From positions 62,001 through 126,000 of the forward strand of contig NZ_CP017641.1 in the NCBI RefSeq assembly GCF_001983935.1: 64,000 nt of DNA. The letters are read 5' to 3'. Under the pieces are notes generated by a model. The model searched no databases and had not been told where the DNA came from. It saw only the letters and a list, made by a program, of their open reading frames with translations. Below, in pieces: positions 39,047 to 56,948 of the stretch (position 1 is the first letter of the stretch; every line of letters begins with the position of its first letter). A program made the position numbers and the translations under genes. Source of the stretch: Fuerstiella marisgermanici (GTDB lineage Bacteria; Planctomycetota; Planctomycetia; Planctomycetales; Planctomycetaceae).

Positions 39047-40168
39047 ATGAAGTTTATCTGTATGGGGTTTATCTCGGAATCGAATCAGCAATCGCTGTGT
39101 GAAGAAGACGGCCAGCGAATGATGCAAGAATGTTTCGCCTACGACGATGAACTGCGGCGCGGCGGTCATTTTCTCGGCGGCGAAGCCCTGCAATCAGCCA
39201 GAAATGCAGTGACGTTGCGAATGAAAAACGGATCGGTCGACGTAACCGACGGACCTTACGTTGAGACCAAAGAGATGCTTGGCGGGATACTTTTGCTGGA
39301 AGCTCGTGATCTGAATCATGCGATCGCTCTGATGTCGAATCATCCCGGCGTGAAAGTGGGCCCGTTTGAGATTCGTCCCGCCGACGAACAAGTCAACGAG
39401 ATGATCGCTGCTCGCGACTTGAAATTCGCCCGGGATGCCGAAGCAGAGCAACAGTTGGAACCTCCGACCGAAGGACGTCCGCGAATCGTATCACGCACCC
39501 AGTGGCAACAGACACTCGACAGATTTCAGGCAAAAGAAAAGAAGGCAACTCGAGAACGCGATGCGTTGGCTGCCGAGCGTCGGCGTCTGCCGATGGTCAA
39601 AATTGAGACCGACTACACGTTTGATGGTCCATCTGGAAAAGTGCGATTCATTGATCTGTTTGAAGGTCGACGACAGTTGGCCGTCTATCACTTTATGTTT
39701 GCCGAAAGCGTCGGTGGTTGGCCAGACGCAGGCTGTCCGGGCTGCTCGTGTTTCGTGGACAACGTCGGCCATCCGGCTCACTTTCAGGCGCGAGACCTGT
39801 CGCTGGCACTTGTATCCCGCGGGCCGCTTGAGAATCTGGAAGCCTACAAGCAGCGGATGGGCTGGAGCCTGCCGTGGTACTCGTCGGCGGAGACGTCTTT
39901 CAACGAAGACTTCGGCGTGACGACTCCGCAGGGAGAAACTCACGGGTTGAGCATGTTTCTTCGAGAGGGTGACGACATTTATCAGACTTACTTCACCGGA
40001 CGACGCGGCGTCGAAGTGCTGCTTAGTAACTTCACTTTGCTCGACATGGCTCCGCTTGGTCGGCAGGAAAACTGGGAAAATTTGCCGCCCGGTTGGCCTC
40101 AGTCCGAGCCCTACGTTTGGTGGCGCCGGCACGATGAATACGGTCCGCCGGAGGTTGTGCAACTATGA
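39047..40168 (+). CDS. YCII (DGPF) domain fused to DUF899 thioredoxin-like domain
   Basis: 373 residues from the ATG at 39047, with AAGGAG nine bases upstream. Residues 1-115 form a YCII/DGPF domain (MKFICMGF..., [18 protein letters not shown]). Residues about 140-373 form a DUF899 domain: [12 protein letters not shown], then [26 protein letters not shown] (clustered Cys), [37 protein letters not shown] and a WWRRHDEYG end. DUF899 has a thioredoxin-like fold; YCII proteins are small ferredoxin-like enzymes of unclear role. The two are normally separate proteins; here they are in one frame without a stop. Confidence 0.9.
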
Positions 40169-40476
40169 TGCCTTGCTGTCGATCACAAATCGAAACTGAC
40201 TCGCCGAAGCGGCCATTGATTCGATCGCTGGCCGGCGGCTTGATTCCGGGCGTTCTGCTTTGCGTGATGCCCAAATGCCCGTTCTGCCTGGCGGCTTGGG
40301 TCAGCATCGCAACAGGATTGGCTTTGCCTTTTCCGCTGGCGAACGGTCTTCACAAAACTTTCATCGCGATGTGCGTCGCATCGGTATTGTTGAGCGTGAT
40401 CTTTTTCGCGCGATCCTTCGTCGTCCTTCGCCCAATGAGAACAGGAAAAACCCATGTCAAAAATGATCTTTATTAA
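40165..40476 (+). CDS. Small Cys-rich membrane protein (CC...PKCPxC type)
   Basis: 103 residues; its ATG overlaps the preceding stop. Starts MMPCCRSQ, then two or three hydrophobic segments ([52 protein letters not shown]). The motif [18 protein letters not shown] recurs almost exactly in the protein at 55819 (VPKCPGCVAAYVALWTG), which likewise stands next to DUF899. The paired Cys residues on the N-terminal tail and in the loop suggest metal or disulfide chemistry. MerT-like transport is a distant possibility. No established function. Confidence 0.8.
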
Positions 40477-40864
40477 TTTGCCCGTCGCTGACCTCAAGGC
40501 ATCCATGGCTTTCTATGAGGCCCTTGGTTTCACGAAGAATCCGCAGTTCAGTGACGAAACCGCCGTCTGCATGGTGTGGAGCGAAACCATCCACGCCATG
40601 TTGCTGACTCACAAAAAATGGCGAACGTTCACCACCAGGCCCATTCCGGCGACAGATTCAAGCGAAGTCATGCTGGCCCTGTCCTGCGACAGTCAAGAAG
40701 AAGTGGATAAACTGAACGAGGCTGCGGCCAAACACGGTGGTACTGCCGACATCAACCCGAAACAGGATTTGGGTTTCATGTATAGCCGTTCGATTGCAGA
40801 CCTCGATGGTCACGTGTGGGAAATGGGTTGGATGGACCCCAGCGTGATACAGCAACAGCAGTAG
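40454..40864 (+). CDS. Glyoxalase/bleomycin-resistance (VOC) family protein
   Basis: 136 residues, overlapping the previous gene by 23 bases, with ACAGGAAAAACCC before the [24 protein letters not shown] is the VOC domain opening; SRSIADLDGHVWEMGWMDP near the end carries the conserved Asp-x-Asp-Gly-His and Glu ligands. Close in type to the lactoylglutathione-lyase-like family found beside YCII and DUF1579 genes. A single-domain enzyme that would dimerise; substrate unknown. Confidence 0.9.
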   Translation: MSKMIFINLPVADLKASMAFYEALGFTKNPQFSDETAVCMVWSETIHAMLLTHKKWRTFTTRPIPATDSSEVMLALSCDSQEEVDKLNEAAAKHGGTADINPKQDLGFMYSRSIADLDGHVWEMGWMDPSVIQQQQ

Positions 40865-40947
40865 TGGTGAATTTATACTGGTAGCAAACAACACTCGAGA
40901 ACGGTTGATGCGAGTCACGATCGTTCCACGAGAGGCGGCTTAATCGA

Positions 40948-41352
40948 ATGAGTGGATCGAAGAAAATGAAAATGACTGGATGGGTGCTAAGCGTTCTGAT
41001 CGCGCTGTTTCTGGGCGTTGCCAGTGCGATGGGAAAGTTCACGCAGTGGGAAGGCAAGGCCGAGATGTTTGACAACCTGGGTTGGGGGGAAGACGTGATG
41101 TTTAAGATCGGGATCGTCGAAGTGGCGATCGCGATTCTGTTTCTGATTCCGCGCACCGCACTCGTTGGAGCGATCCTGCTGGCGGCTTATCTGGGTGGAG
41201 CCACGGCGACTCATGTTCGCGTCGGTGATCCATTCTATTTCCCGATCATCATCGGAGTCGTCGCCTGGATCGCAATTGGCCTGCGCAAGCCCGAAGTCTT
41301 TCGCCTCGCATTGGGAAATGACAAACCCGTTTCACAGGAAAACCAACCATGA
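40948..41352 (+). CDS. DoxX-like membrane protein
   Basis: 134 residues, four transmembrane helices. TGWVLSVLIALFLGVASAMGKFTQW, EDVMFKIGIVEVAIAILFLIPRTALVGAILLAAYLGGATATHVR and YFPIIIGVVAWIAIGLRKPE fit the DoxX/DoxX-like family. Family role is not settled; it is linked to thiosulfate or quinone metabolism and redox stress. It overlaps the next gene by four bases (ATGA). Confidence 0.87.
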   Translation: MSGSKKMKMTGWVLSVLIALFLGVASAMGKFTQWEGKAEMFDNLGWGEDVMFKIGIVEVAIAILFLIPRTALVGAILLAAYLGGATATHVRVGDPFYFPIIIGVVAWIAIGLRKPEVFRLALGNDKPVSQENQP

Positions 41353-41708
41353 AATACATGCTTTTGATTTATGGTGCCGAGAGTGGCTGGACCGAAGAAG
41401 AGCGCGAGGCCTGCATGATCGAGTCGATGGAAATCAGCGAAGAACTCGAAAAGCAGGGCAAGTGGATTTCGGCGTCGCCGCTTCATTCCGTCACGACGGC
41501 GACCAGCGTGCGAGTTCGCGAAGGCAAACAGCAAATCACCGATGGCCCTTTCGCGGAAACGACAGAACAACTCGGCGGTTACTACATCATCGACGTCGAC
41601 GACCTGGATGAAGCAATCAAAGTCGCCGCGAGGTTGCCGCCTGCGAAGAAAGGCACGGTCGAAATTCGCCCGCTGCTGCCGCTGCCTGAATTACCTGCAT
41701 CGACTTAA
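41349..41708 (+). CDS. YCII (DGPF) family protein
   Basis: 119 residues, translationally coupled to DoxX. KYMLLIYGAESGWTEEER, VREGKQQITDGPFAETTEQLGGYYIIDVDDLDEAIKVA and GTVEIRPLLPL are hallmark YCII blocks; the TDGPF motif names the DGPF group. Genes of this family are the constant partners of ECF42 sigma factors, and one follows here. Confidence 0.92.
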   Translation: MKYMLLIYGAESGWTEEEREACMIESMEISEELEKQGKWISASPLHSVTTATSVRVREGKQQITDGPFAETTEQLGGYYIIDVDDLDEAIKVAARLPPAKKGTVEIRPLLPLPELPAST

Positions 41709-41715
41709 GTTCGGC

Positions 41716-41862
41716 ATGTGTTGGCAGATCGCGGGATACTTTTTAATCGACGTCGCCAACCTCGACGAAGCCATCGCGGTCGCAGAGAAAATTCCCGGTA
41801 CTACGCGTGGCACCATGGAGATTCGCCCAATTGTCGAACTGCCAGATTGCCGTAGGTCACCA
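41716..41862 (+). pseudogene. Remnant of a second YCII gene (C-terminal third)
   Basis: In frame with the sigma factor and directly before it lies GYFLIDVANLDEAIAVAEKIP followed by GTMEIRPIVELPD, a clear match to the last third of the YCII gene just upstream. The N-terminal two thirds are absent. It looks like the product of an internal deletion between tandem YCII genes. It could still be translated as a 49-residue extension of the sigma factor from the ATG at 41716. Confidence 0.75.
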
Positions 41863-43098
41863 ATGCATTCCGCCGAAATCGAAGAACTTTACCGCAACGA
41901 ATCTCGCAAAGTGTTTGCGACATTGATTCGTTTGCTGGGCGATTTCGACCTCGCGGAAGAAGCAACTCACGAAGCTTTCGCTGCTGCCATGCAACAGTGG
42001 CCGGAGCACGGTCTGCCGGACAACCCAGCATCGTGGTTGGTCTCAACGGGACGATTCAAGGCGGTGGACACATTGCGTCGACGAGCCAAACTGAATGATC
42101 TGCAACCGGAACTGAGTCGTCGACTTGCGGAAATTGAAGCGGCCAATCACTCAGTGGCTCAGCAGGACATCGAAGACGATCGCCTGCGTTTGATCTTCAC
42201 GTGTTGCCACCCGGCGATTGACCCGAAAGTCCAGGTTCCGCTGACGCTGCGGGAAGTCTGCGGGCTGACGACGGAAGAAATTGCACGAGCATTTCTGATC
42301 GCACCCTCGACGATGGCTCAGCGCATTGTTCGCGGCAAGGCAAAGATCCGCGACGCCCGAATTCCCTACACCATCCCTTTGCTGAATGATCTGCCGTCGC
42401 GGCTTGAACCAGTTCTGTCGGTGATCTATCTGGTTTTTAATGAAGGCTATTCCTCTTCGAGCGGCGAAAGCCTGACGCGCGCCGATCTTTCCGACGAAGC
42501 CATTCGTTTGGCTCGGCTGTTGGTCGAGCTGCTTCCTGACCCGGAAGCGATGGGCCTGCTGGCGTTGATGCTGCTTCATGAATCACGCCGCGAGGCACGT
42601 ATGAATGTCGACGGCGACATTGTCTTGCTTGACGAACAGGATCGCACGCTTTGGAATCAGGATTTCATTGCCGAAGGTAGCCGTCTGGTCGAACAGGCCC
42701 TTCGTTCGCGCCGTTTTGGAGTCTACTCGATCCAGGCCGCGATCTCCGCCGTGCACGCCGAAGCAACCGAGGCGAGTGAAACCGACTGGGCACAGATCGT
42801 TGCGCTGTACGATGTCCTGTTTCGAGCAGACGCATCTCCCGTCGTCGAACTCAACCGAGCCGTCGCGATCGCGATGCGAGACGACATTGCTTCCGGCCTG
42901 GCCATCATCGACTCGATTTTGTATCGCGGCGACTTACACGACTATTATCTGGCCCATTCCGCTCGAGGTGAATTTCTACGGCGACTCGGCAACAAGGATC
43001 AAGCCAAACTCGCGTTCAAGCAGGCACTGGCACTTGCCAGGCTGGAACCAGAACGTCGCTTTCTCCGAAACAAAATCGCCTCGACCGAATCGGATTGA
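41863..43098 (+). CDS. ECF42-type RNA polymerase sigma factor
   Basis: 411 residues from the ATG at 41863. Sigma-2 region ELYRNESRKVFATLIRLLGDFDLAEEATHEAFAAAM, then NPASWLVSTGRFKAVDTLRR; sigma-4 region LTLREVCGLTTEEIARAFLIAPSTMAQRIVRGKAKI. The long C-terminal extension (about residues 180-411), with YLVFNEGYSSSSGE and helical repeats, is the DUF6596/TPR-like part that defines ECF42. No anti-sigma factor is present; in this group the extension itself regulates activity and target genes are often YCII genes. It probably controls the cassette from 38450 onward. Confidence 0.92.
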   Translation: MHSAEIEELYRNESRKVFATLIRLLGDFDLAEEATHEAFAAAMQQWPEHGLPDNPASWLVSTGRFKAVDTLRRRAKLNDLQPELSRRLAEIEAANHSVAQQDIEDDRLRLIFTCCHPAIDPKVQVPLTLREVCGLTTEEIARAFLIAPSTMAQRIVRGKAKIRDARIPYTIPLLNDLPSRLEPVLSVIYLVFNEGYSSSSGESLTRADLSDEAIRLARLLVELLPDPEAMGLLALMLLHESRREARMNVDGDIVLLDEQDRTLWNQDFIAEGSRLVEQALRSRRFGVYSIQAAISAVHAEATEASETDWAQIVALYDVLFRADASPVVELNRAVAIAMRDDIASGLAIIDSILYRGDLHDYYLAHSARGEFLRRLGNKDQAKLAFKQALALARLEPERRFLRNKIASTESD

Positions 43099-43172
43099 GT
43101 CAACTGACGAATCGCTTTTTGCAATTATTGACTTGCCAACAAACTGGACCAGGGAATGATGACCCGGAGCGG

Positions 43173-44119
43173 CTACGGCGACCAGGTTAGCGACGTCTTC
43201 TGTTCGGAAAGCGTCCAGAGTTTTGCGGCCGCTTCTTCATCCAGGGCGCAGTCATCCAATGGACATTCGCCGATGGGCCGACTGTTTGGGCTCTTTTGGT
43301 AGGACCATAAAGCTTTTCAGTTTCCACGGTTTCCTCCGTTGCACACATGACTTCGGGCCAGGAACCCTTCTCGGCGGATTGTGCGATCACTCGTGAGAGT
43401 ATGGACCAGACGATTTTGTTGAAGGTGCTTGCCGTGTCCTTTAGCAAGTTGGTTCGTGACGCGCCGGGGTGGCAGACCTGGACGGTGACGTTCTTTTCGG
43501 CAGCTTCAACGCGGCGCTGCAATTCATAGGCGAACATCATCTGCGCCAGTTTGCTTTGGGCGTAGGAATTCCAGGCGGTGTAGTTGTTGTCAAAGTTGAG
43601 GTCTTCAAACTGAATTCTCTTCAGCCCCATCTTGTAGGCGTTGCTGCCGACAACGACGATCCGCCCCGCGGACTCTTCGACGCGATCGAACAACAGTCCA
43701 CAAAGCAGGAAATGACCGAAGTGGTTCACGCCAAGCTGGCTTTCAAAGCCGTCAACAGTGATCTCTTGTTGGGCAACCTGCGCGATGGCGGCGTTGCAGA
43801 TCAGAGCGTCGATGCGGGGAACCGACTTCAAAACGTCCGCCGCGGCTTCTCGCACGGAATCCAATACCGCCAGGTCCATCCGCACGAATGTCACGTCAGC
43901 ATCGCTACCGAATTCCTGCTTCAGCTTCGCGATGGCGACAGCTGACTTGTCGCCGCTGCGGTTCAACATCACAACGCTTGCGCCTTTGGACAGGAACACT
44001 CGCGTTGCTTCAAAACCCGCGCCGTTGTTGGCGCCGGTGATGAGATACGTTTTGCCGGCCAGGGAGCCGAGTCGTTCCGGCGTCCAGCCCTTGGGGCCGA
44101 ACTTTGTTTTGGTACTCAC
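43173..44119 (-). pseudogene. Short-chain dehydrogenase, frameshifted near its C-terminus
   Basis: Starts with GTG at 44119, overlapping the RND stop. Up to about residue 275 the frame reads as an intact SDR: KTYLITGANNGAGFEATRV, DALICNAAIAQ, VVVGSNAYKMG, YAQSKLAQMM (catalytic Tyr/Lys) and VCHPGASRTNLL. After VGP the frame changes: the current one ends at 43187, while the +1 frame continues IGECPLDDCALDEEAAAKLW and TLSEQKT to a TAG at 43173, as SDRs of the retinol-dehydrogenase type end. One missing base in the G-run at 43275-43277 explains it. All active-site residues lie upstream, so a protein with a short odd tail might still work. Confidence 0.85.
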
Positions 44120-47100
44120 TACGCGGACTCCTGAATTTGCGGAGTATAGTCGTCGGCAGCGCTAAGGCGCGACGTGGGCGACATGAAGGAATAGAGGACC
44201 GGGATGACGAACAACGTCAGCAGAGTGGCGAAGGTCAGGCCGAAGATCAGCAACCACGCCAGACCTTGCCAAAGCGGTCCACCGCCAAGTGCAAGAGGAA
44301 CGAGTCCGCCAACGGTCGTCGCGGTTGTCAGAAAGATCGGCATCAGTCGTTGCCGTGCAGCGTCGACGATGGCAGCGTGATAAGCCTCGCGCGAAAGGGG
44401 CTGACCGGTTCCGGATGTTCGTTCCTTCATGACAATGTCAGCGAATTCAACAAACAGAATGGCTGAATTCAAAACGATTCCGAACAGCGCCAGCACGCCG
44501 AGTTGCGGCATGAATCCGAACGCGTTGCCGGTCACCCACAGTCCGAACAGTGCGCCCACGAGCGCGAGCGGCAGCGTCACCATGATGATCGAAGTTCGGG
44601 CGAGACTGTTGAACTGAAAAATCAACAACAGAATGATTGCGATGAACGACATGCCGAATGACCGGAACATTTTCCATTGAGCTTTCATCGACTCTTCAAG
44701 AGCTCCCCCGATCTCGATGCGAAATCCGGCAGGCAATTCGGCTTTCAGCTCTTGCATTGGCTCGGAATTGAAGACGCGCGTCGTGATGTCGTTGCCTGAC
44801 GCCCCGTAGTTGATCCGTGATCGGACTTCGATCGTTTGATTCCCGTCGCGCCGATCAATGGTCTCCAAACGCCATTGTGGTTTGACGCTGGCGATGGCTG
44901 CGAGCGAAACTTTGCCAACACGGCTTTCGATGTGAGAGTTCTCGACCGCACCGAGTGACCGACGGCTTTCGGGATTCAACCGAAAATAGACCGGGATTTG
45001 GCGGTCACTCTCGCGATATGTCGTCAGCAGTTTTCCGGAATAGTAAGCGGCAAGCGTTGAGGCAACTTCCGCGTTGCGAATTCCTGAAAGGCTCGCCCGA
45101 TCTGAATCTACATCGACGAACAACTGTTGGCCGGACACGCCCCACGAATCGTTGACGTCCCAGGTGTCAGGCTCGGCGTCTACAATCGACTTGACGCGAT
45201 TCGCGATGCTCCTAAGTCCGTCCGCGTCGGCGAGCCCGTTACCCATGACGCGCAGAACGACCGGATCAGCGGGCGGGCCGAGCGCCAGTTCAACGGGAAC
45301 GACTCGTGCGCCGGCGATCGGCGACAGCCCCAGCGATTCGTCACCTTGCCTCGCCACAACGCGAAGTTGTTCGGCGAAGTCGTGAGTGAACTCTCCCTTG
45401 GTCGTGTGAATCAGAATTTCAGCGTAGTTCGGTTTCAGGGTTTCCGGTTCCCATGCGAGATACCAGCGCGACCCGCCTCCGCCGACGAGGGTTCGCATGT
45501 TGAGCAAACGTTGGTGCGGGTTTCCTTCGTCATCGACATGCGGGCTCAGCGCGCGGATCATCTCTTCGACCTTGCGAGCAACCTTGTTGGTTTGTTCGAT
45601 CGAAGCGGATTCGGGTAAATAGATTTGAACGGCAAATTGGTCGCGCTGCGTGAGTGGAAAGAACTCGCTTGAAACCGGCAATTGAGTCGCCAGCAGCAAC
45701 GTGCCGATGGATGCGGAAATCGTGACAAAACGATGACGCAGAGCCCATCCGACAGCGATGGCGTAGAGTCGGTAGAAGCCACCTTGTGGCTCAGTTGCCT
45801 CAACTGAGTGGTCGTGAACAGTTGGGGACAACTGTTCTACATTCTTTGGCTTGTTTTTCTTTCGGCGAAGCCTGCGCCACACAGTTCCCAGTTTGCTCAT
45901 CAACCACGGCAGCGGCGCGGTGGGGCGACTTAAGTCTTGGGGCGGTCGAATGAACCAGGCGGCGAGGATGACGCAGAAAGTCATTGCCAGAACCCAGCTG
46001 ACGGCCAGCATGACCGACAGCGTGATCGGCAGGCTGTAAATGAACTCGCGATTGGCACCGTCCATCGTGATCAACATTGGAATGAAAGCGGCAACCGTCG
46101 TCGCGGTTCCGCTCAACATCGAAACACCAAGCATCTTTGCACCCGCAACGGACGCTTCGCGTGGGTTCATGCCGGCAATCTGGTTCGTACGACTTTGGTC
46201 GCAGACCTGAACCGCATTGTCGACCAGCAGTCCCAGCGAGATGATCATCGACGCCAGCGACATTTGTTCCAGTTGCACATCAAAGAGCGTGATGATCGCG
46301 AGCGACGAAACAACAACAAACGGGATGTTGGCCGCCATGACGGCAGCCGTGCGAAAGCCAACGACCAGATACACCAGAACGACCACGACCAGAATCGCCT
46401 GGACGATGTTCACGCCAACTTCGCGAATGCGCTGCTTCACGCTATCCGACTGATCGGAAATGATGGACACGGCCAGATCGGGCGGCAACACGCCCGTGCT
46501 TTGCAACTGGGCGACACTTTCTTTGGAACGGTCGCAAATGTCGATGATGTTTGCACCTGATTTCATCGACACCGCAAGGGTGATGGCGGGCGTCTCGAAC
46601 TCGGGCGTTCCGTAGAGACAAATGAGCTGAGCAGGGTCGACGTAGCCACGACGAACGTTCAAGCCCATGTTCTTGAGTTGAACTTGATTGAAGCCAGCGT
46701 CCCCGTCTTCGTTCGCTGTTGCCACGACACCAACGACCAACGAATCAAAAGCCTCCACCGCGCCGACATCACCGCTGGGCTTCACAAAAAAGCGACCATC
46801 TTCGCCGTCGATCCGTCCGCCTTGAGCGACAATATTTTGCGATTTGGCAAGGGATTCGATTTGAGCCGTCGTCCGCTCCAGCGTTGACCAGTTCCCCTCA
46901 TTGGTCTCGATGTAGATGGCTTCTTCCTGAACTCCAAACCGACCGACCTGCGAAACGCCAGCAGCAGCCGCAGCGAATCACGAATTCGTTCTGAGTACAA
47001 ATCGAGCTGTCGCGGCGAGTAGGCGTGCTTCGGACCAACTGTCGAGTCCCCATCGAGCGGCTGTTGGTGGACGGCATAGAGCAGGACGCTGGTGTCAGCG

Positions 47101-47501
47101 AATTCGTCGAACAGAAACGGCGAAATGCTTTCGTCCGGCATCGGCACATTGCGAATCCGGGCGCGCACGCGATCCCAGGCGTCGTCGACTCGAGCGCCCG
47201 GCACGTTGTCTTCGAGCTCGACGAAGATGACCGACTGTTCGCTGCTGGACGTCGATCGAATCAAGCGAACTTCTTCCAGTCCGTCGATCGCATCTTCCAG
47301 AGGATCGGTGACCAGATTTTCGATCTGCTCCGCCGACGCACCTTGCCACCGAGTGGTCACGAGGGCGATCTTGAGCGTGAATTCAGGGTCTTCGCGACGC
47401 GGCATGGTGAAGAAACTGACGCTGCCCCAGGCGACCAGTAACAGCACCAGAGTGATCGTGATTGTCGGCCGACGCACTGCGAAATCGGGAAGGCTTCTCA
47501 T
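44119..47501 (-). pseudogene. RND-type efflux transporter, split by a frameshift
   Basis: Full gene would be about 1127 residues. The first frame (47501 to 46782) gives the N-terminus (VRRPTITITLVLLLVAWGS, RREDPEF...) up to RIRDSLRLL; the second (to 44119) continues VSQVGRFGVQEEAIYIETNE through the rest of the pump, 12 TM helices in all, with LGLLVDNAVQVCDQ in TM4 and VLNSAILFVEFAD in TM10. One base is missing near 46970-46971 (one C of a CC pair in GCCTGG on the coding strand). It forms a tripartite pump with the adaptor; outward export of drugs, metals or lipids is likely. The start overlaps the adaptor stop (ATGA). Confidence 0.9.
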
Positions 47502-49257: not shown

Positions 49258-49273
49258 AACTTGCTCAAAGACG

Positions 49274-49441
49274 CAGTACAGGCTGGCACACCAGGGAAGA
49301 TCACTTTTCAGATTGCGGTGTCGTCACTATTGGTAACCCGACGCGTTAGCGAGGCGTTTGCGTTGTCCCTCGCTCACGCGTCGGGTTACCAGGAATGTCC
49401 CGCTTCGGAAAGTGATCTTCCCTGCGCAGCCTGTGCTACTT
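49274..49441. repeat. Nested foldback element between efflux operon and tetR
   Basis: Inner arms: GGTAACCCGACGCG at about 49332-49345 and its complement in CGCGTCGGGTTACC at 49377-49390, extending into GAGG/CCTC blocks. Outer arms: CAGGGAAGATCACTTT (49292-49307) and its complement (49409-49424). The outermost bases carry AGTACAGGCTGGC / GCAGCCTGTGCTACT. Non-coding; overlaps the divergent promoter region. Confidence 0.8.
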
Positions 49442-49445
49442 GAGG

Positions 49446-49469
49446 AAAGTAAACCGAACGGTATACTTT
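49446..49469. promoter_or_regulatory. Probable TetR operator
   Basis: 24 bases starting AAAGTAAACCGAACGG that match their own complement at 20 of 24 positions (AAAGTA...TACTTT ends). It lies 6 bases before the tetR start and upstream of the divergent efflux operon. A second AAAGTAAACCG stands inside the first codons of tetR (from 49488), a partial direct repeat. Confidence 0.65.
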
Positions 49470-49474
49470 ACATT

Positions 49475-50119
49475 ATGTCAGGAAAAAGTAAACCGCAAAG
49501 TGTACCTTCTGAGCCAGAGCCCCATGGGCGCCTGACCGATCGCAAACGAGCGTCGATCGTGCAGGCGGCTGTCGAGGCGTTTCAGCAGTACGGCTATTTT
49601 GCTGCCAGCATGAACGGCATCGCTGAGGCCGCTTCGGTCAGCAAACGAACGCTGTACAACCATTTCGACAGCAAGGAAGCTCTGTTTGTCGAGATCCTTG
49701 AGGAGCTGAAATTTCGCGTTGAGCAGTTGCCGGAATGCGAGTTCGACGAATCGCGTGATCTTGCCGAGCAGTTGACGGAGCTTGCACACTCCGAAATCGA
49801 CTTTTTCACATCGGAACACGTGCAGGCACTTGCCCGAGCCGGCTTGTCACGCGTGCTGGGTGAACCGGATGCCGGCCAGCAAGTCGATCAGCGATTCTTC
49901 ATCCGGCGAGTGACAACCTGGATGAAAAAGGCCCAAGCTTCCGGCTGTCTACTCGAAGCCGACGCAGAGTTCGCAGCGATGCAATTCGTCGGCCTGCTGC
50001 GGACGTTCGCCTTCTGGCCAACCATCGTCCACGGCGAGTCTCCCCCCTCACGCCGCAAACGAAAACAAATCGTCGCTCACACCGTCGAGATGTTTCTTAG
50101 CCGATATGCGGTTGAGTGA
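49475..50119 (+). CDS. TetR-family transcriptional regulator
   Basis: 214 residues from the ATG at 49475. RASIVQAAVEAFQQYGYFAASMNGIAEAASVSKRTLYNHF is the N-terminal HTH with the TLYNHF recognition helix; the C-terminal part (DFFTSEHVQALARAGLSRVL, FIRRVTTWMKKAQASGCL) resembles TetR_C_7-type ligand/dimer domains of AefR/AcrR-like regulators. It is divergent from the RND operon and has a palindromic operator just before its start, so it most likely represses both. It remains intact although its target operon is broken. Confidence 0.92.
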   Translation: MSGKSKPQSVPSEPEPHGRLTDRKRASIVQAAVEAFQQYGYFAASMNGIAEAASVSKRTLYNHFDSKEALFVEILEELKFRVEQLPECEFDESRDLAEQLTELAHSEIDFFTSEHVQALARAGLSRVLGEPDAGQQVDQRFFIRRVTTWMKKAQASGCLLEADAEFAAMQFVGLLRTFAFWPTIVHGESPPSRRKRKQIVAHTVEMFLSRYAVE

Positions 50120-50460
50120 ATCCTGTCGCTTTTCGGCCTGACACAAACGGGGCGATTCAGGAAGCCATGGCTTGATCGCACAACCCGTGGCTACTCGGGC
50201 CGGAGGTCTGGGTTTTTGGGTAGCACCCACATGGCAAGCTTCTTCGGTGTCTCGGCAAGATTCGCCAAACGCAACTTCCGGCATATACGTGGGCAGCCTG
50301 CGGTTTCTCGCCCTCACCGGGGCCGACGGCGAAACCAGCATCTGTCGCCATCCCAGTGCCGTCTGTCACGCCGGTGATTACAACGGTTTGCATTGTTTTC
50401 TCCGTAGATCAGGTTGCCAGCCTGAAGGTTGGTTGTCCGGTTGCAGGCAAGCTGCCTGCA
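50120..50460. repeat. Intergenic region with palindromic repeats
   Basis: No gene. TGCAGGCA-AGC-TGCCTGCA at 50442-50460 is a perfect 8-bp hairpin with a 3-nt loop. GGTTTCTCGCC...GGCGAAACC near 50301-50337 is a second, longer-loop hairpin. Confidence 0.6.
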
Positions 50461-50688
50461 CTACGTTTTAGTCATCAAAGTGTGTGGCAGTACTTCGTCG
50501 GCCAATGGCCTCAATGTTGTATCGATGTCCGCTTGATTGAATCGCAGATTAAGCGCGACGTGATTCACGCCGATCTCTTCCCGCTCCTTGAGGTAGTCAC
50601 GAAGATGATTCGCGCCGAGCTGGAAACCGAGATGACTTGGCTGTGGTGATGCGTCAGCGGCTTCCGTCAGATCCACGTATAGGCGACT
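50461..50688 (-). pseudogene. C-terminal remnant of an LLM-class flavin oxidoreductase
   Basis: About 75 codons. YVDLTEAADASPQPSHLG, then FQLGANHLRDYLKEREEIG and VNHVALNLRFNQADIDTTL match the last part of luciferase-like monooxygenases. A stop just upstream (and no plausible start) shows that the N-terminal three quarters are gone. It ends LPHTLMTKT before a TAG. Confidence 0.72.
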
Positions 50689-50807
50689 GCATCACCGGCT
50701 GATTTGGCTCCCAGCATCTCCCGAACGTAAAGCAGGCAGCTTGCCTGCCCACACGTAAACACGCACACATACAGGAGAAAAACTTGGCAACAGGCTGGCA
50801 GCCTGTG
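50689..50807. repeat. Two short palindromic repeats
   Basis: GCAGGCA-GCT-TGCCTGC at 50733-50749 and ACAGGCT-GGC-AGCCTGT at 50790-50806, both perfect 7-bp stems with 3-nt loops, of the same type as 50442-50460. Confidence 0.7.
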
Positions 50808-50960
50808 CTACGGGTTATCGACAACCCTTTTGCTCATTGCTTGTCCGTTTTCGAGCCGAGTATGCGCCTGTCTGCCTTCATCAAGCGTGAACTGCTTTTC
50901 ATCAAGCATTGGCTTGAGGCCGCTGGATTTGACGATCGTTGCAAACAGCGAAAAGAGGCC
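50808..50960 (-). pseudogene. C-terminal remnant of an MDR (zinc-type alcohol dehydrogenase/quinone reductase)
   Basis: LFSLFATIVKSSGLKPMLDE followed by KQFTLDEGRQAHTRLENGQA and MSKRVVDNP, the characteristic MDR ending (xLKPxIDxxFxLxEaxxAHxxLExGxxxGKxV). The frame opens upstream only into the cupin gene region in a different frame, so this is a severed gene end. It overlaps the tail of the cupin reading frame. Confidence 0.72.
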
Positions 50961-51358
50961 AGGAACCAAATCCGGGCAGCCGCGCTGTTCAGTTTGTCCG
51001 AACGCACTGCCTGTTGCGCATCGATTTCTACGGCAGGAATCGTTAGCCGTTTCACGTTTCTGGGGTGAACCAACGTGAAAATCACACGGCACCTCTGTTT
51101 CGCATCCGGATTGCGGGCCACTTCGTGGCGAATCATTGCAGGCTCGAAAAATGTACCACCTGCTTTCAGCGTTTTCAGAGGTTTGCCGGTGATTTTGAAC
51201 TCCAGCGTCCCTTCGGCAACATAGCCGACGACTTCGCCAGGGTGATAGTGTGGTGCCGATGAATCGCCGGGCGCGAACGTCACTTCGAACAGCGAGGCGA
51301 ACATTGCCTTGCCGTCAACAGTGCCCGCTAGTGGATGCGTGCGAAGGACTTTGACCAT
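50834..51358 (-). CDS. Cupin-domain protein with an aberrant C-terminal tail
   Basis: 174 residues from the ATG at 51358. Residues 1-110 form a complete single cupin: LFEVTFAPGDSSAPHYHPGEVVGYVAEGTLEFKI (first motif, with HxH and Glu) and FEPAMIRHEVARN (second motif, His). Such proteins bind a metal and act as small oxygenases or isomerases. The last 60 residues, after LTIPA, have no family resemblance and run over the MDR remnant in another frame; the normal stop has probably been lost at a deletion junction. Confidence 0.75.
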   Translation of the reverse strand: MVKVLRTHPLAGTVDGKAMFASLFEVTFAPGDSSAPHYHPGEVVGYVAEGTLEFKITGKPLKTLKAGGTFFEPAMIRHEVARNPDAKQRCRVIFTLVHPRNVKRLTIPAVEIDAQQAVRSDKLNSAAARIWFLASFRCLQRSSNPAASSQCLMKSSSRLMKADRRILGSKTDKQ

Positions 51359-51364
51359 CAGCAA

Positions 51365-51526
51365 GTTGAATGTGCCACGTTGGACAGCACTGTCGCATCA
51401 GCAGCACCTGACCTGAGCGGGGCAATCGCTTCCTGTCCGAAGGCCAGAAGCAGAAGTCGAAGAACATCGGTGGGAAAGCATTCGCCATAGAATCGGGCCA
51501 TTTCACTGAAGTCGTGTCTGAGCAGA
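51365..51526. other. Short gap, nothing recognised
   Basis: A 63-codon minus frame (51315-51506) lies here but has no recognised motif. Confidence 0.3.
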
Positions 51527-52003
51527 CTATTGGGCTGTTGTGGCAGGCCTCTTCAACAAAGATTCGATGTACCGGTGGTCGGTTTGAAATGGTACAGCCA
51601 GCCGATTCCAGGTGTTGATCATGGCGACAGCAATGCTTAGCTGGCTGACTCCGGCGTCTCCGAATTCGCGAACGGTCGATTCGTAGAGATCATCGCTGAC
51701 ACCCGCACCGTCCGAAAGCCTGGTCAGGGCCTCTGCCCATCGAAAGGCAGTTCGCTCGCGTTCAGAGTAGCAAGGTGCCTCCTCCCAGACGCCCACCAGA
51801 TCGATGCGTTGATTCGTTTCCTCGAACAGCCGAAGTTGCTGCGTATGCAGACTGACGCAAAAGGCACAGCCGTTAATCTGCGACACGCGTAGCTTGACCA
51901 GTTCCAGTAAATGCTGGCTGATCGTGTACGACAACATTGTTGTCTCGATTGCAGACAGTTGTTTGATCTCGTCAGAGACCAGTTGAAAGTAGTCGGCTCG
52001 CAT
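51527..52003 (-). CDS. AhpD/carboxymuconolactone-decarboxylase-like protein
   Basis: 158 residues from the ATG at 52003; the frame extends further upstream without family signal. HLLELVKLRVSQINGCAFCVSLHTQQLR carries the CxxC motif with the following His of AhpD-like alkylhydroperoxidases; RTAFRWAEALTRLSD follows. Such proteins reduce peroxides with a lipoyl or thioredoxin partner, or act as decarboxylases. Divergent from the MocR regulator gene, which likely controls it. Confidence 0.9.
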   Translation of the reverse strand: MRADYFQLVSDEIKQLSAIETTMLSYTISQHLLELVKLRVSQINGCAFCVSLHTQQLRLFEETNQRIDLVGVWEEAPCYSERERTAFRWAEALTRLSDGAGVSDDLYESTVREFGDAGVSQLSIAVAMINTWNRLAVPFQTDHRYIESLLKRPATTAQ

Positions 52004-52078
52004 ATTTCTTTTCCAAAGCAGTCGATGAAACGGTTGATTCGGGTAGAATTCTAGCGAACAGCTGGCTCCAGCAAAGAT

Positions 52079-52109
52079 CCACTTTCGCACAAACATAAAG
52101 GGCCACTTT
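52079..52109. promoter_or_regulatory. Possible MocR binding region (direct repeat CCACTTT)
   Basis: CCACTTT occurs at 52079-52085 and 52103-52109, 24 bases apart, in the 111-base divergent gap between the AhpD-like and mocR genes. Direct repeats about two helical turns apart are typical of MocR/PdxR sites, so this is a plausible operator; it is inferred only from the repeat. Confidence 0.35.
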
Positions 52110-52114
52110 TGACC

Positions 52115-53599
52115 ATGGTGAAACAACGCAATAAAGAAACGTTTGAATTCGAATCGATTCAGTTCAGTTCGAAGTCAAAGATACCGGTTTATCGCCAGTT
52201 GGAAAACCAGCTGCGTCAGGCGATCTCCAGCCGTACTTTGCTTCCGGAGGACCGTGTGCCTTCCAGTCGCAACCTCGCGGCGGCGATCGGCGTGTCTCGC
52301 AACACAGTGCTGGCCGCCTACGAACAGTTAATCTCGGAAGGCTATCTGGAGGCCGCTCACGGCAGCGGGACTCGTGTTGCCAAAATGCCACCGCAAGCGT
52401 TCGAGTTCGACTCGGCGGCACACCCGGAGTCCTCGCGAGTGGACGCGGATGAATGTCTTGCGAGTTTAGGACGACAATTTCGAGCCGACGCTATGTTGCT
52501 ACCTTCTGCGAGGCAACGTCCGCAGGCGTTCACACCTCACTTACCGTCAGTTGACGATTTTCCGTGGGAATTATGGAATCGGTTCAGCAACGAACAATCG
52601 CGTTGGTCCAACCGCCATCTGATGTTGGGCGACCCACAGGGCTACCTTCCGTTGCGTGAAGCGATTGCTCAGTACATGGCAGTTTCACGAGGTCTTTCCT
52701 GCTGCGCCGACCAGGTGGTCATCACATCGGGGGCTCAACAGGCCGTCACGATGGTTGCACAACTGTTGCTGGAACGAGGCGATGTGGTCTGGGTAGAAGA
52801 ACCAGGCAACGCACCGGCGAATCGATTGCTGGAGGTCGCAGGATCCAGACTGGTTCCAATTCCGTTGGACGCCGAAGGCATCGACCTGAGCCAGGTTCCT
52901 TCCGTACGCCGACAACCGAAACTGATTTGCGTGACGCCGGGCGGGCAATGGCCGATGGGGATGACAATGAGTCTCAATCGCCGATTGGAACTGATCGCAA
53001 TGGCACAGAAAAATAAGAGCTGGATTATCGAAGACGACTACAACGGTGAGTTTCGATACACCGGACGTCCGCATGCTTCGCTCAGCAGCCTCGATTCGTC
53101 AGGGCGAACGATCTATATGGGGACCTTCAGCAAACTACTCTTCCCTTCAATTCGGTTGGGCTTTCTGATCGTTCCAGCGTCGCTGGCGAAAACGTTCGCC
53201 TACGCACGATTCCTGCAGGATCGCGGTTCGCCACCGTTGGTTCAAATGGTATTACACCGTTTCATCGAAACCGGCAGCTTCATCAACCACATTCGCCGCA
53301 TGCGAACGCTGTACGCGGAACGCCAGTCCGTGCTATTTGAATCACTGCAAAAACATCTGGCTGGTTTGATCAAAGTAGAGCAACCTGAATCAGGTATGCA
53401 TCTGGTCGCACAGGGAGTTACGAAAACGGCGGAAGCGAAACTGGTATCGGCCGCCATTCAGACTAAAGTCGATTTTCATCCCGTCAACATATATTCACTC
53501 TCGGGCAACGCTCGCGGAATGATTCTGGGCTTCGCTGCGTTTGATCGAAAGATGATCCAGAGCACCGTTCGACGTTGGGCGAAAGCACTGAAACGTTGA
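52115..53599 (+). CDS. MocR/PdxR-type regulator (GntR-HTH plus aminotransferase domain)
   Basis: 494 residues from the ATG at 52115 (an upstream TTG is possible). IPVYRQLENQLRQAISSRTL and VPSSRNLAAAIGVSRNTVLAAYEQL form the N-terminal GntR winged helix. After a linker, a fold-type I aminotransferase domain follows: VVITSGAQQAVTMVAQLL, YNGEFRYTGRPH, and MGTFSKLLFPSIRLGF with the PLP lysine. Such proteins sense PLP or an amino-acid adduct and regulate a neighbouring gene, here probably the divergent AhpD-like gene. Confidence 0.94.
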   Translation: MVKQRNKETFEFESIQFSSKSKIPVYRQLENQLRQAISSRTLLPEDRVPSSRNLAAAIGVSRNTVLAAYEQLISEGYLEAAHGSGTRVAKMPPQAFEFDSAAHPESSRVDADECLASLGRQFRADAMLLPSARQRPQAFTPHLPSVDDFPWELWNRFSNEQSRWSNRHLMLGDPQGYLPLREAIAQYMAVSRGLSCCADQVVITSGAQQAVTMVAQLLLERGDVVWVEEPGNAPANRLLEVAGSRLVPIPLDAEGIDLSQVPSVRRQPKLICVTPGGQWPMGMTMSLNRRLELIAMAQKNKSWIIEDDYNGEFRYTGRPHASLSSLDSSGRTIYMGTFSKLLFPSIRLGFLIVPASLAKTFAYARFLQDRGSPPLVQMVLHRFIETGSFINHIRRMRTLYAERQSVLFESLQKHLAGLIKVEQPESGMHLVAQGVTKTAEAKLVSAAIQTKVDFHPVNIYSLSGNARGMILGFAAFDRKMIQSTVRRWAKALKR

Positions 53600-53618
53600 C
53601 AGCCGCTAAGCGACACGA

Positions 53619-53706
53619 CAGCGTTGCACGTTGACTTGTGGCCGCGAAAATCGTTTTTTGTCTTAGGTGGGTCGGTTCCCATGAGTCAGAACCGTCCACA
53701 ACAAAA
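53619..53706 (-). repeat. Dispersed 88-bp repeat, copy B
   Basis: Same length and orientation as copy A (10823-10910), ungapped, about 60 of 88 identical by hand count, and identical over the final CCGTCCACAACAAAA stretch. It fills most of the gap between the MocR and DJ-1 genes. Confidence 0.75.
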
Positions 53707-53717
53707 CGTAAATTGCT

Positions 53718-54353
53718 CTAGCGTCCATGCTTTTTCAGTCGTTTAAGATACAGTTGCGATTCCACAAACCTGCGATGTTCGGGACCTGCCAACTCTTCAA
53801 GCAATTCCAGTGCTGAAATATAGCTGGCCAGATTTCCGTTTGATGAAATCATTTTCCCGTCGCGGACAAAGCTGACTTGATTGTCGTCCTGCACGGCAAG
53901 TTGGGGGTAAGTCTTCTGCAACAGGTCACCGCCGCCGATGTAGGTCACGATTTTTCGTCCGTCGGCCACACCGGAGGCTCTAATCAGATGCGCGCCCGCA
54001 CAGTTGCTCATCGTGAAGTCTGACGCATTGCCTTTGGATTTCACAAACGCAACGATCTCCCTGGATGCCACCACCGATTCCATGTCGTAGCAACTGGACA
54101 CGACCAACACGTTCAGTTTCGGGCAGTCATCAAACGAATAATCAGGAAGTACCCTCAGGCCGCTTTCCATGGGCACTGGCTGCAATGCGCGGGCGACAGT
54201 AACCACGTTGAAGGGATTCTTTCCGTCCTTCGCTGGTTTGGAGAATACGTCGATCGGTGCGGTGACTTCCGTCATCAACACATTGTCGAAGAGCAGGACG
54301 CCAATCGTTGGCAGCGACTCGTCGAATTCAGATCGATTCACACTGTCCTTCAC
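53718..54353 (-). CDS. DJ-1/PfpI family protein
   Basis: 211 residues; start is a GTG at 54353. TIGVLLFDNVLMTEVTAPIDVF opens a DJ-1/PfpI class I amidotransferase-like domain of the AraC-linked subgroup; MSNCAGAHLIRASG contains the nucleophilic Cys; SSNGNLASYISALELLEELAG closes it. Family includes isonitrile hydratases, chaperone-like and glyoxalase III enzymes. An ATG with a perfect GGAGGAAAC stands 13 bases upstream but in another frame, so the true start may be affected by an indel. Confidence 0.85.
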   Translation of the reverse strand: MKDSVNRSEFDESLPTIGVLLFDNVLMTEVTAPIDVFSKPAKDGKNPFNVVTVARALQPVPMESGLRVLPDYSFDDCPKLNVLVVSSCYDMESVVASREIVAFVKSKGNASDFTMSNCAGAHLIRASGVADGRKIVTYIGGGDLLQKTYPQLAVQDDNQVSFVRDGKMISSNGNLASYISALELLEELAGPEHRRFVESQLYLKRLKKHGR

Positions 54354-54973
54354 GTTGATCGTACATGTTTCCTCCGTTGCTGTTATCTAATCTTGCGCGT
54401 GAACGTGCCACATATTGCCGAACAGGGTGGATACGATGAACCAGGCTGGCAGAATTCTCATTGTGGTCTTCCTTCAGGGCGTTACGACAGGATATCGATC
54501 CACCGCTGCGGTTCGATACCCGCCATTCTCAGCGGCCAGTGGACCTTTTCCAGATCCACAGTACTAAAAATCGAAGGTACCACTTTGCTGGCCGGAAGGC
54601 ATGGTCCATGCCGATAAAGAGCGACTTGTGTCGTTTGCTGCGAACCACGCCATGCATAAACGAGGCGCCCACAAGGATAGACGCTCCGTCATGACACCCA
54701 AACTATTGTTGGCGCCGACGGGGAGACCATCCATGGAAGAGCTTTTTTGTTTTTTAAGATCGCTTTTCGCCCGGACCGTCAGCGTGGCGTTTCTGGCGCC
54801 GGCTAATCCGATTGGATGCTGAGCGATTCGTCGCCCTTTCCACTGCCTTCTTCGACCGCTGGCACACCATTCGCCGCGTCGCGACCTCGATTGGAAAATT
54901 GACTTTGAATTTTTCATCGTGAGCCGGACGATTTTCCTCTTGATGTATTCCTTAATGGGAATATATTAGATTC
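54354..54973. other. Intergenic region, promoter of the ArsR cassette at its right end
   Basis: About 620 bases. No gene is recognised; open frames at 54564-54917 (minus) and 54601-54822 (plus) have no family resemblance. The right end holds the promoter and operator below. Confidence 0.45.
54940..54967 (+). promoter_or_regulatory. ArsR-cassette promoter with overlapping palindromic operator
   Basis: -35 TTGATG (54940-54945), 16-base spacer, -10 TATATT (54962-54967). TATTCC-TTAATG-GGAATA (54946-54963) is a perfect inverted repeat in the spacer, a likely ArsR-family operator. Transcription would begin about at the ATG (54974), so the message may be leaderless. Confidence 0.65.
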
Positions 54974-55321
54974 ATGCCTCCACGACCGACGACGACAGAT
55001 GTTTTCACTGCGATTGCCGAGCCTCGGCGACGAGAGCTTGTTTCGCTATTGGCAAAAAAGGGGCCGATGCCGGTTGGCGACATGGTTGAGTTGACTGAGC
55101 TTTCGCAGCCATCGGTCTCCAAACATTTGGGGCTATTGCGCGAAGTTGGCGTTGTGTCGGTTGCCAGGCAGGGCCAGCAGCGAATCTACAATCTGGAGGC
55201 TGAAAAGCTGAAAGCCGTCTACGATTGGGCCAAAAGTTTCGAGTCGATGTGGGACGGACAGCTTTCGCGGATTAAAGCGACCGCCGAGAAGCGAGCGGCG
55301 GCCGCTCGCAGGAATAATTGA
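54974..55321 (+). CDS. ArsR/SmtB-family regulator
   Basis: 115 residues. DVFTAIAEPRRRELVSLLAKKG and MVELTELSQPSVSKHLGLLREVGVVSVARQGQQRIYNLEAEKL form the winged-helix of the ArsR family. No CxC metal motif is present; it is of the SdpR-like type that pairs with AHSA1 domain proteins. It probably represses its own operon by binding the palindrome in its promoter. Confidence 0.92.
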   Translation: MPPRPTTTDVFTAIAEPRRRELVSLLAKKGPMPVGDMVELTELSQPSVSKHLGLLREVGVVSVARQGQQRIYNLEAEKLKAVYDWAKSFESMWDGQLSRIKATAEKRAAAARRNN

Positions 55322-55354
55322 TTGACACCGATATCAACACTGACGAGGTATCTC

Positions 55355-55819
55355 ATGATCAAGAGCAATAACACCGACGGGAAACTGGAAACCTTTACAA
55401 TCGACCGCGTTGTCGAGATCGAAGCACCAATTGAGTTCGCGTTTGAAGCGGTGATGGATCAGTTGGGGACGGATTGCGAAATGCCGGGAAGCAAACGCTT
55501 TCCGATGAAATTGGAAGCCTGGCCGGGCGGACGATGGTATCGCGAAATTGGCGAGAACGCCGGGCATTTGTGGGGGCACGTCCAGGTCATGAAACCGCCG
55601 ACTTTGATTGAAATCTGCGGACCGCTGATGATGTCGTACGCGGCCATCAATCACCTTTCGTATCGCCTTAGTGCTGAAGGACTGTCGACCAGGCTGACCT
55701 TTCGACATCAAGCCGCAGGACTGCTCGAAACCGAACACTTTGATGGACTTCCCGCCGGATGGGAATACTGGATCGAACGCATCTGTAAGCTGTCGGTCGA
55801 GAAAGCGGAGCAGGCGTGA
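55355..55819 (+). CDS. SRPBCC/AHSA1-domain protein
   Basis: 154 residues from the ATG at 55355, preceded by GAGGT at good spacing (an upstream TTG exists). FTIDRVVEIEAPIEFAFEAV opens an AHSA1/SRPBCC domain, with LEAWPGGRWYREIGENAGHLWGHVQVMKPPTLIEICGP in the middle. It has the START-like hydrophobic pocket of polyketide cyclases/Aha1. Such genes commonly follow SdpR-type ArsR regulators. It overlaps the next gene by one base. Confidence 0.92.
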   Translation: MIKSNNTDGKLETFTIDRVVEIEAPIEFAFEAVMDQLGTDCEMPGSKRFPMKLEAWPGGRWYREIGENAGHLWGHVQVMKPPTLIEICGPLMMSYAAINHLSYRLSAEGLSTRLTFRHQAAGLLETEHFDGLPAGWEYWIERICKLSVEKAEQA

Positions 55820-56124
55820 TGACTTGCTGTTGTCGTAATCAAACACCACTGCGAAATAAAACGTTGCTCAGCAGAGCAGGTGTTGCGACGCAGTGGATTC
55901 TGCCAGGCGTCGCTCTGGCGTTCGTTCCCAAATGCCCAGGTTGCGTTGCGGCGTACGTCGCGCTGTGGACGGGACTTGGAATCGGGCTCACAACGGCTAC
56001 GTATCTGCGCTGGGTCTTGATCGCAATCTGTGTCACCGCATTGGCGGTCCTTGCGTTGTCACGACTGCGGCATCTGCGAAATCTTAATCGTGTGAATGTT
56101 CAATCTTCTGAACTGGAGAAATAA
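55819..56124 (+). CDS. Small Cys-rich membrane protein, paralogue of 40165
   Basis: 101 residues from ATG at 55819 (GTG at 55816 also possible). MTCCCRNQ start, then WILPGVALAFVPKCPGCVAAYVALWTG and two hydrophobic segments after it. It shares the CC(C)R N-terminus and PKCPxCxAAxVxxxTG motif with the 103-residue protein at 40165. It is between AHSA1 and DUF899, so both copies of this family stand beside DUF899. Confidence 0.82.
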   Translation: MTCCCRNQTPLRNKTLLSRAGVATQWILPGVALAFVPKCPGCVAAYVALWTGLGIGLTTATYLRWVLIAICVTALAVLALSRLRHLRNLNRVNVQSSELEK

Positions 56125-56126
56125 CC

Positions 56127-56948
56127 ATGCAACGTGAAATAGTCAGCCGGGAATCCTGGCTTGAATCGCGAAAGGACCTGGTGGAAGCTGAGAAGGAACT
56201 TACACGTCGTAGTGACGAAGTCGCTGAGCAACGCCGGAAGCTGCCTTGCGTGCGCATCGACAAGGCATACGAATTCGACGCGGAAAGTGGTAAGGCATCC
56301 CTGGCGGAATTGTTCCAGGGCCGAAGTCAGCTTTTAGTCTATCACTTCATGTTTGGCCCCGACTATGAAGCCGGTTGCGTTTCGTGTTCGGCAATCGCCG
56401 ACTCTTTTGACGGGCTGCACGTGCATTTGGCAAATCATGATGTGACTTTATGTGCTGTATCGAGTGCTCCCCAAACCAAGCTTCAAGACTACAGAAAACG
56501 CATGGGCTGGAGCTTTCCGTAAGTCTCGTCGGCAGGCAGTGATTTCAACCGGGATTTCGGTGTTGGTTTTTCGGAGGAACAGCAATTTGAAACCGGGCTG
56601 ATTTATAACTATCGCGACGAACCCGTTTGGCTCAAGCGAACCGACGAAGGCATCGCCAGCCGAATGGACGGTTCACCGGTCGGTATCAACGCGGCAATGA
56701 CGGGAACCGACGTCGCGACCTACACGCGTGAACGTCCCGGAGTGAGCGCGTTCGAACTCGAAGACGGCGTGATCTACCACACCTACTCAACCTTTGCCCG
56801 CGGACTGGATGTTCTTTGGTCCCAGTACCAATGGCTCGACCGAGCACCCAGGGGACGCAACGAATCAGCCTTTTGGTGGCGACGTCATGACGAATACGAC
56901 AACTCTCCATCGAGTGCGGACGGGGCGCAGCACAATTTGTTTGGATGA
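56127..56948 (+). pseudogene. DUF899 thioredoxin-like protein, interrupted by an in-frame TAA
   Basis: The frame runs from the ATG at 56127 to TGA at 56948 with one stop, TAA at 56520-56522, between QDYRKRMGWSFP and VSSAGSDFNRDFGV, where DUF899 proteins have Trp. The first half has YHFMFGPDYEAGCVSCSAIAD, the second GLIYNYRDEPVWLKR, GVIYHTYSTFARGLDVLW and [10 protein letters not shown]. Compared with the intact fusion at 39047, the loss is recent: both halves are otherwise well conserved. A TGG-to-TAA change needs two base changes. Confidence 0.88.

Follow-up and report, generated by a model that had tools for sequence, protein, structure and literature searches.

Among the membrane proteins that handle thiols or metals through cysteines, CcdA and DsbD consist of six or more helices with one cysteine in each of two homologous halves, and MerC has four membrane segments. 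On the soluble side, typical peroxiredoxins are marked by the active-site motif PxxxTxxC. Here we analyse a stretch of 64,000 nucleotides (nt) from Fuerstiella marisgermanici (the window; the genome is one contig of 8,920,478 bases), in which two genes of the DUF899 family (PF05988) lie, at two separate loci, next to genes for small membrane proteins with the motif PKCPxC, here termed family A. In the literature passages that name DUF899 the family is mentioned in passing, among thioredoxin-like clan hits and in a table of pathways; they describe neither a function nor a membrane partner, subscription literature being largely outside the search, and in this they agree with the initial annotation of the stretch, which knew of no described function for the pairing. 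We propose, with a probability of roughly 40%, that the two proteins form a dithiol relay at the cytoplasmic membrane.

At locus 1 the DUF899 gene (39047-40168, + strand) precedes the family A gene (40165-40476, +), with which it overlaps by 4 nt (ATGA). At locus 2 the order is reversed, and the DUF899 gene (56127-56948, +) begins 2 nt after the family A gene (55819-56124, +), whose ATG shares 1 nt with the stop codon of an upstream AHSA1-like gene (TGATG); an alternative GTG start three bases earlier would give a 4-nt overlap with that gene. The first membrane protein, recovered in a search of its own genome, has 103 amino acids (aa), the motif PKCPFC and an N-terminal MMPCCR tail; the second has 101 aa from the ATG, PKCPGC and an MTCCCR tail. 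Their coordinates, their 38% identity (BLASTP E 2e-13) and the motifs common to both, CCR near the N-terminus and PKCPxCxAAxVxxxTG, confirm the two paralogous pairs in opposite order that had been annotated initially. The annotation of both DUF899 proteins needed correction. The first is a YCII-DUF899 fusion (PF03795 57 bits, PF05988 267 bits) with GCPGC as its CxxC; the second, with GCVSC, is broken by an in-frame TAA (56520-56522) within the conserved GWxFPW stretch, and its PF05988 match comes in two pieces of 194 and 75 bits (cut-off 27). The frame after the stop is open and DUF899-like (75 bits), and the damage looks recent, or else the product may be made in two parts; given this stop, locus 2 may be decaying. 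Internal TAG stops were also seen in the DUF899 genes of genomes G238 (L122, at a different position from the window TAA) and G320 (L168).

In the whole genome, the two DUF899 genes and the two convincing small-protein matches form exactly the two adjacent pairs; two further weak matches to the small-protein profile A1 (E 0.18 and 0.75) lie in unrelated open reading frames (ORFs). The pairing is above chance because the 8.92-Mb genome holds just two of each gene, and chance was rejected on this ground and on the basis of the loci found elsewhere. The count of how often the PKCPxC protein lies beside DUF899 across genomes, which the initial annotation had called for, was made with a profile (A2) built from 14 small proteins and scanned against a species-genome collection. 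A DUF899 gene, detected with the DUF899 profile, stands on the same strand in 77 of the 80 family A loci analysed (the best 80 of 113 confirmed), so the neighbourhood is conserved beyond this genome; the scan demanded PKCPxC[LV]AA, which is constant in these loci by construction. The loci come from seven phyla (Planctomycetota 26, Bacteroidota 23, Verrucomicrobiota 17, Acidobacteriota 9, Pseudomonadota 2, Binatota 1, Hydrogenedentota 1) and one record without rank, and a linkage specific to one genome is thereby rejected. Two of the loci without DUF899 (L074, L095) have a contig end close to the small gene; the true exception is L058, where a gene for a DsbA-like protein (PF01323, 4e-23) lies about 100 nt upstream of the family A gene.

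For gene order and spacing 74 of the 80 loci were usable, with the exclusion of L058, L074 and L095 (no DUF899), L055 (a DUF899 fragment), L099, and L102, whose ORF is extended upstream but which is nonetheless a real pair. DUF899 stands first in 65 pairs and the small gene in 9; with family A start codons assigned by our own rule, the two genes overlap or abut in 43 pairs, are separated by no more than 100 nt in 65 and by more than 250 nt in 4. In L099 both domains lie in one 376-aa ORF, which we rejected as a fusion, the stretch between the domains looking frame-shifted; the locus is counted among the 77 and left out of the pair and tail counts. Two tandem DUF899 genes were observed at the pair locus in L059, L073, L096, L101 and L108, and in three of these (L059, L073, L096) one of the two seems to represent a divergent subfamily.

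The association also holds between genomes. Among 246 genomes of the same phylum, assumed to be part of the 294 searched with profile A1 and with A1 matches weaker than E 1e-8 not counted, DUF899 at 150 bits or more is present in 9 of 9 with clear family A versus 4 of 237 without (Fisher 9e-14); at the Pfam cut-off, which also lets in 29-79-bit matches taken for other redoxins, the figures are 9 of 9 versus 31 of 237 (3e-8). The mirror-tree correlation of the 74 pairs is modest (0.33), the best of 2,000 permutations giving 0.27. That DUF899 and family A belong together is strongly supported, and genomic data could not make the linkage any firmer.

An adjacency of this kind might reflect no functional link, both genes co-riding in mobile stress-gene cassettes with YCII, VOC, DoxX, DinB and AHSA1 neighbours, and the neighbours are indeed cassette-like and differ between loci. 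The pair stays, however, while the other neighbours come and go, and family A almost never occurs without DUF899. On a DUF899 tree of 131 rows, built by a quick method and with 40 of 128 inner branches below 80% support, the partner state changes at least 17 times and the gene order at least 5 times; that the order switched so often and adjacency was yet kept speaks against this explanation, which is already unlikely and to which we give next to no credence. The nearest relatives of the window DUF899 proteins on this tree are from Rhodopirellula, and Rhodopirellula rubra (L104) also has the YCII-DUF899 fusion, with ECF42 close by. DUF899 is widespread in bacteria, occurs in an archaeon as well and is common on plasmids (300 records), where window copy 2 of family A as a tblastn query found no match at E 0.01.

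The DUF899 domain gave a confident model (predicted local distance difference test, pLDDT, 92.5; predicted TM-score, pTM, 0.88), for which peroxiredoxins of the PrxQ/BCP type rank top with Foldseek and VIA-align; against PrxQ 3ixr the Z score is 15.3 with a root-mean-square deviation of 2.3 over 142 residues. A sequence search of the PDB returned for DUF899 weak peroxiredoxin matches alone (best E 0.12). CxxC is found in 45 of 45 DUF899 sequences. The 17-residue mean hydropathy never exceeds 1.9 in any of the 74 paired proteins, and this lack of a membrane-grade stretch points to a cytoplasmic location.

Family A proteins are about 100 aa long and have two hydrophobic segments, the first of which contains CPxC; the 19-residue mean hydropathy exceeds 1.6 in 74 of 74. 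Because the tails carry a net positive charge (N-tail in 72 and C-tail in 67 of the 74) and the loops rarely do (13), the sequences suggest a topology with both termini in the cytoplasm; the N-tail contains CC or CxC in 60 of the 74. In an AlphaFold model of membrane protein 2, which is weak to modest (pLDDT 73.5, pTM 0.40), helices span residues 17-36, 41-52 and 58-100, the first being broken at PKCP. The window copies have no Pfam or NCBIfam family above cut-off, and the PDB search by sequence gave nothing beyond chance for family A (best E 1.1). Weak Pfam matches among 53 members point to DUF2162, a predicted transporter (16 of 53, best 1.7e-4), and to DsbD_2 (1 of 53, 2.3e-4); the window proteins reach at most 13.8 bits with DUF2162, whose cut-off is 34.4.

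Alternatively, family A might serve to position DUF899, as a membrane anchor or an assembly factor, with the family A cysteines binding a structural metal or a lipid-linked group without electron transfer. What favours such a role is a second protein, family B, which adjoins DUF899 in Alphaproteobacteria and has a single conserved cysteine, so that DUF899 may depend on having some small protein in the membrane beside it and not on a thiol. It was met as an unannotated protein of 85-98 residues beside DUF899 in 5 of 10 plasmid DUF899 loci inspected, and a family B search gave 42 plasmid records, with DUF899 adjacent at 11 of 12 fetched places (in one case split over two ORFs); L220 has family B without DUF899. 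The motif is LAAAPTFAxMA ... GMxxMYLLMSxFH, with two stretches that appear hydrophobic by eye and invariant Met and His in the second segment; the single cysteine is conserved in five aligned members, and family B is probably a small two-helix membrane protein. On the other hand P-K-C-P-x-C is constant in all 14 A2 sequences, nine of them found by a motif-free profile search and three picked by motif, which is more than an anchor needs, and we consider the anchor role improbable. DUF899 thus often has a small membrane protein as its neighbour, though from more than one family. Family B was seen next to DUF899 in Alphaproteobacteria and Roseateles (plasmid loci L205-L207, L211, L213, L215-L226), in some records with a divergent helix-turn-helix gene and a beta-propeller gene alongside.

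The family A profile matches two MerC-like fusion proteins of distant planctomycetes with 28.5 bits (the HMA-MerC fusion) and 18.6 bits, and two SCO1 fusions with 36.8 and 28.2 bits, the best of 1,600 shuffles reaching 13.4; profile-profile comparisons (hhalign) gave 88.6, 95.5 and 96.0%. The membrane parts of the two MerC-like fusions score 39.6 and 26.7 bits against Pfam MerC, the latter just below the cut-off of 27.6, and these proteins (L024 1300-2277, HMA-MerC; L023 610-1917, MerC-like in its C-terminal domain) connect family A with Pfam MerC. The MerC-like domain of L024 was not found on plasmids. Direct comparison of family A with Tn21 MerC (1.6%), MerE (0.7%) and MerT is not significant, PF03203 (MerC) matches neither window protein at E 0.1, and it is absent from the 25 families listed, out of 30, that 53 members match with E values up to 1. 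Planctomycete PF03203 proteins, mostly of another subfamily (CAxHC), were set aside. Family A is best seen, from these profile comparisons, as a remote, shortened relative of MerC-like domains and not as a PF03203 member.

This kinship allows a soft-metal or organometal shuttle, in which family A would act as a miniature MerC/MerE/MerT whose CPxC lets Hg(II), organomercury, Cu(I) or As(III) through. DUF899 would receive the metal on a Cys tail and on its CxxC, in the manner of the C-terminal Cys pair of MerA. Consistent with this, the matches to MerC-like fusions lie above the shuffle control and reach 88.6% in the profile-profile comparison; for MerE two helices are predicted, and a Cys pair in the middle of helix 1 is required for transport (PMC5715351), and MerA is stated from earlier work to move Hg from its C-terminal Cys pair to the active site (PMC10587081). 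Moreover, one of the ten plasmid DUF899 loci, from Paraburkholderia caribensis (L208 2244-3098), adjoins PpoB2 (PF09948), a copper-chaperone membrane protein. Against the shuttle stand the non-significant direct comparisons with Tn21 MerC and MerE, the absence of a MerA match above cut-off in the genome (best 388.7 against 454.5 bits) and the lack of a Cys tail in both window DUF899 proteins. A metal-site Cys motif, by our own pattern, occurs in 0 of 34 ArsR-like ORFs beside the pair, 22 of which have no cysteine at all, and such cysteine-poor neighbours speak against metal sensing. Metal transfer appears unlikely, though only somewhat less likely than the thiol relay. The earlier suggestion of a membrane thiol-redox or metal-handling pair is partly supported, agreeing with the cysteines, with the peroxiredoxin-like fold and with the distant relationship to MerC.

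For the dithiol relay, in which either electrons or soft metal could be the relayed species, we infer the mechanism from the cysteines, the fold, the topology and the thioredoxin-fold alternatives to DUF899; the features on which it builds come from sequences, genomics and predicted models. DUF899 would dock on family A and exchange a disulfide (two electrons) with its cytoplasmic Cys tail and then with the intramembrane CPxC. The relay could keep DUF899 reduced for the detoxification of peroxides or electrophiles, or it could feed reducing power into the membrane, a task that CcdA/DsbD perform with more helices. Under chemical or oxidative stress the pair would be induced by its stress-type regulators (ECF42/YCII, ArsR). 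The other partners of family A also have a thioredoxin fold, namely the DsbA-like protein of L058 and the SCO1 domain fused to a PKCPFC domain in L016 and L027 (profile match 95.5%). The latter are proteins of about 520 aa (L016 1345-2892, L027 328-1908) with a SCO1/SenC domain and the PKCPFC membrane domain at the C-terminus.

Cysteine tails occur in DUF899 as well. A C-terminal CC or CxC tail is present in 59 of 83 DUF899 proteins beside family A versus 2 of 44 otherwise (Fisher 5e-14, a test that ignores descent); the 44 divide into 0 of 16 beside family B and 2 of 28 with neither partner within 300 nt. These counts leave out duplicates, pieces shorter than 180 aa, DUF899 genes with no partner and less than 400 nt of flank, L099, and also L094 and L072, in which the partner is more than 300 nt away; five of the 28 rows without partner come from family A loci in which the small gene is more than 300 nt away (L059, L067, L073, L096, L101). 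After correction for descent, the link between tail and family A is suggestive, not significant.

Several observations weigh against a thiol relay of this kind. On the side of the cysteines, eight independent pairs on supported branches gave 3.5 in the same direction, 0.3 in the opposite one and 4.2 without difference, which is not significant; the tails of DUF899 and family A do not co-vary within pairs (p 1.0), and neither window DUF899 has the C-terminal tail. The classical motif PxxxTxxC (T or S allowed) is found in just 3 of 45 DUF899 sequences, the DsbA-like protein of L058 has a single cysteine at its active-site-like position, and the SCO1 and MerC/HMA fusions are just as compatible with metal transfer. 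On the side of the linkage, many DUF899 genes lack family A. At 15 places in the same phylum (149 bits or more) the partner lies within 1.5 kb at 9, one further place being near a contig end; of four more places in relatives, three have family A (L028, L030, L033) and L029, from the same genus, does not; and in the phylum of genome G326 family A stands beside DUF899 at 1 of 8 places. In 22 genomes picked for having family A, the partner is within 1.5 kb at 23 of 30 DUF899 loci.

The regulatory context is shared with other loci. Locus 1 comprises, all on the + strand, DUF1579, YCII-DUF899, the membrane protein, glyoxalase/VOC, DoxX_2, YCII and a sigma factor of the extracytoplasmic function (ECF) type (41863-43098), with Sigma70_r2, Sigma70_r4_2 and DUF6596 domains and C-terminal TPR repeats; its ECF42 group name rests on the sigma domains and TPR features, not on an ECF classifier. 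Locus 2 comprises an ArsR-family regulator with zero cysteines (54974-55321, +; HTH_5 43 bits), the AHSA1-like protein (55355-55819, +), the membrane protein and DUF899. Both regulators agree with the initial annotation; its AHSA1 label needs correction, the AHSA1/SRPBCC-like match to PF08327 being sub-threshold (E 0.013, 16.1 bits against a cut-off of 22.1). In the 80 loci, phmmer with the window proteins found ArsR in 33, AHSA1-like proteins in 27, ECF42 in 14 and YCII in 14, all lower bounds. ArsR and ECF42 are together in no locus and neither is present in 33, so the window's two regulators reappear elsewhere as alternatives; this recurrence and the 77 loci support the view that the two proteins belong together, the initial annotation having suggested joint action from their linkage under different regulators. 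ECF42 factors are thought to act through the TPR extension, and Pseudomonas putida ECF-10 affects sensitivity to oxidative stress and antibiotics (PMC8999054). The ECF42-like promoter motif TGTCG-N15-18-CGTC was uninformative (9 in the window against 5.5 expected). Just upstream of the sigma factor gene, and in frame with it, 41710-41862 carries a YCII remnant (23.4 bits, cut-off 24), a second, broken YCII copy.

The linkage gives a domain of unknown function a near-obligate membrane partner with defined cysteines and makes the two testable as a system, and a two-helix protein may do a job known from larger thiol conduits or metal transporters. Both window proteins belong to the DUF899 family by the curated cut-off of PF05988. 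With PrxQ/BCP peroxiredoxins DUF899 shares the predicted fold; it differs in its thioredoxin-like CxxC, in the rarity of PxxxTxxC and in an N-terminal helix (residues 7-36) that lies outside the matched range (39-207). With MerC, MerE, MerF and MerT family A has in common two cysteines in the first hydrophobic segment and, through the MerC-like fusions, a remote profile kinship; unlike MerC, it has two segments, it is not matched by PF03203 and no mer operon surrounds it. If the relay holds, the likeness to CcdA/DsbD and DUF2162 would be an intramembrane Cys pair beside a soluble thioredoxin-fold partner, that to DUF2162 and DsbD_2 resting on weak Pfam matches; family A differs from CcdA/DsbD in its size of about 100 aa and two hydrophobic segments, and in holding both CPxC cysteines in one of them. 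As a tentative proposal, the pair could be a minimal conduit, in which electrons or soft metal would pass from the C-terminal Cys tail of a cytoplasmic PrxQ-fold enzyme to the Cys tail of a two-helix MerC-related protein and on to its intramembrane CPxC. The pair would then represent the smallest known analogue of CcdA/DsbD or of MerT-MerA, its membrane part having come or gone beside DUF899 at least 17 times on the tree, with family B taking that place in Alphaproteobacteria.

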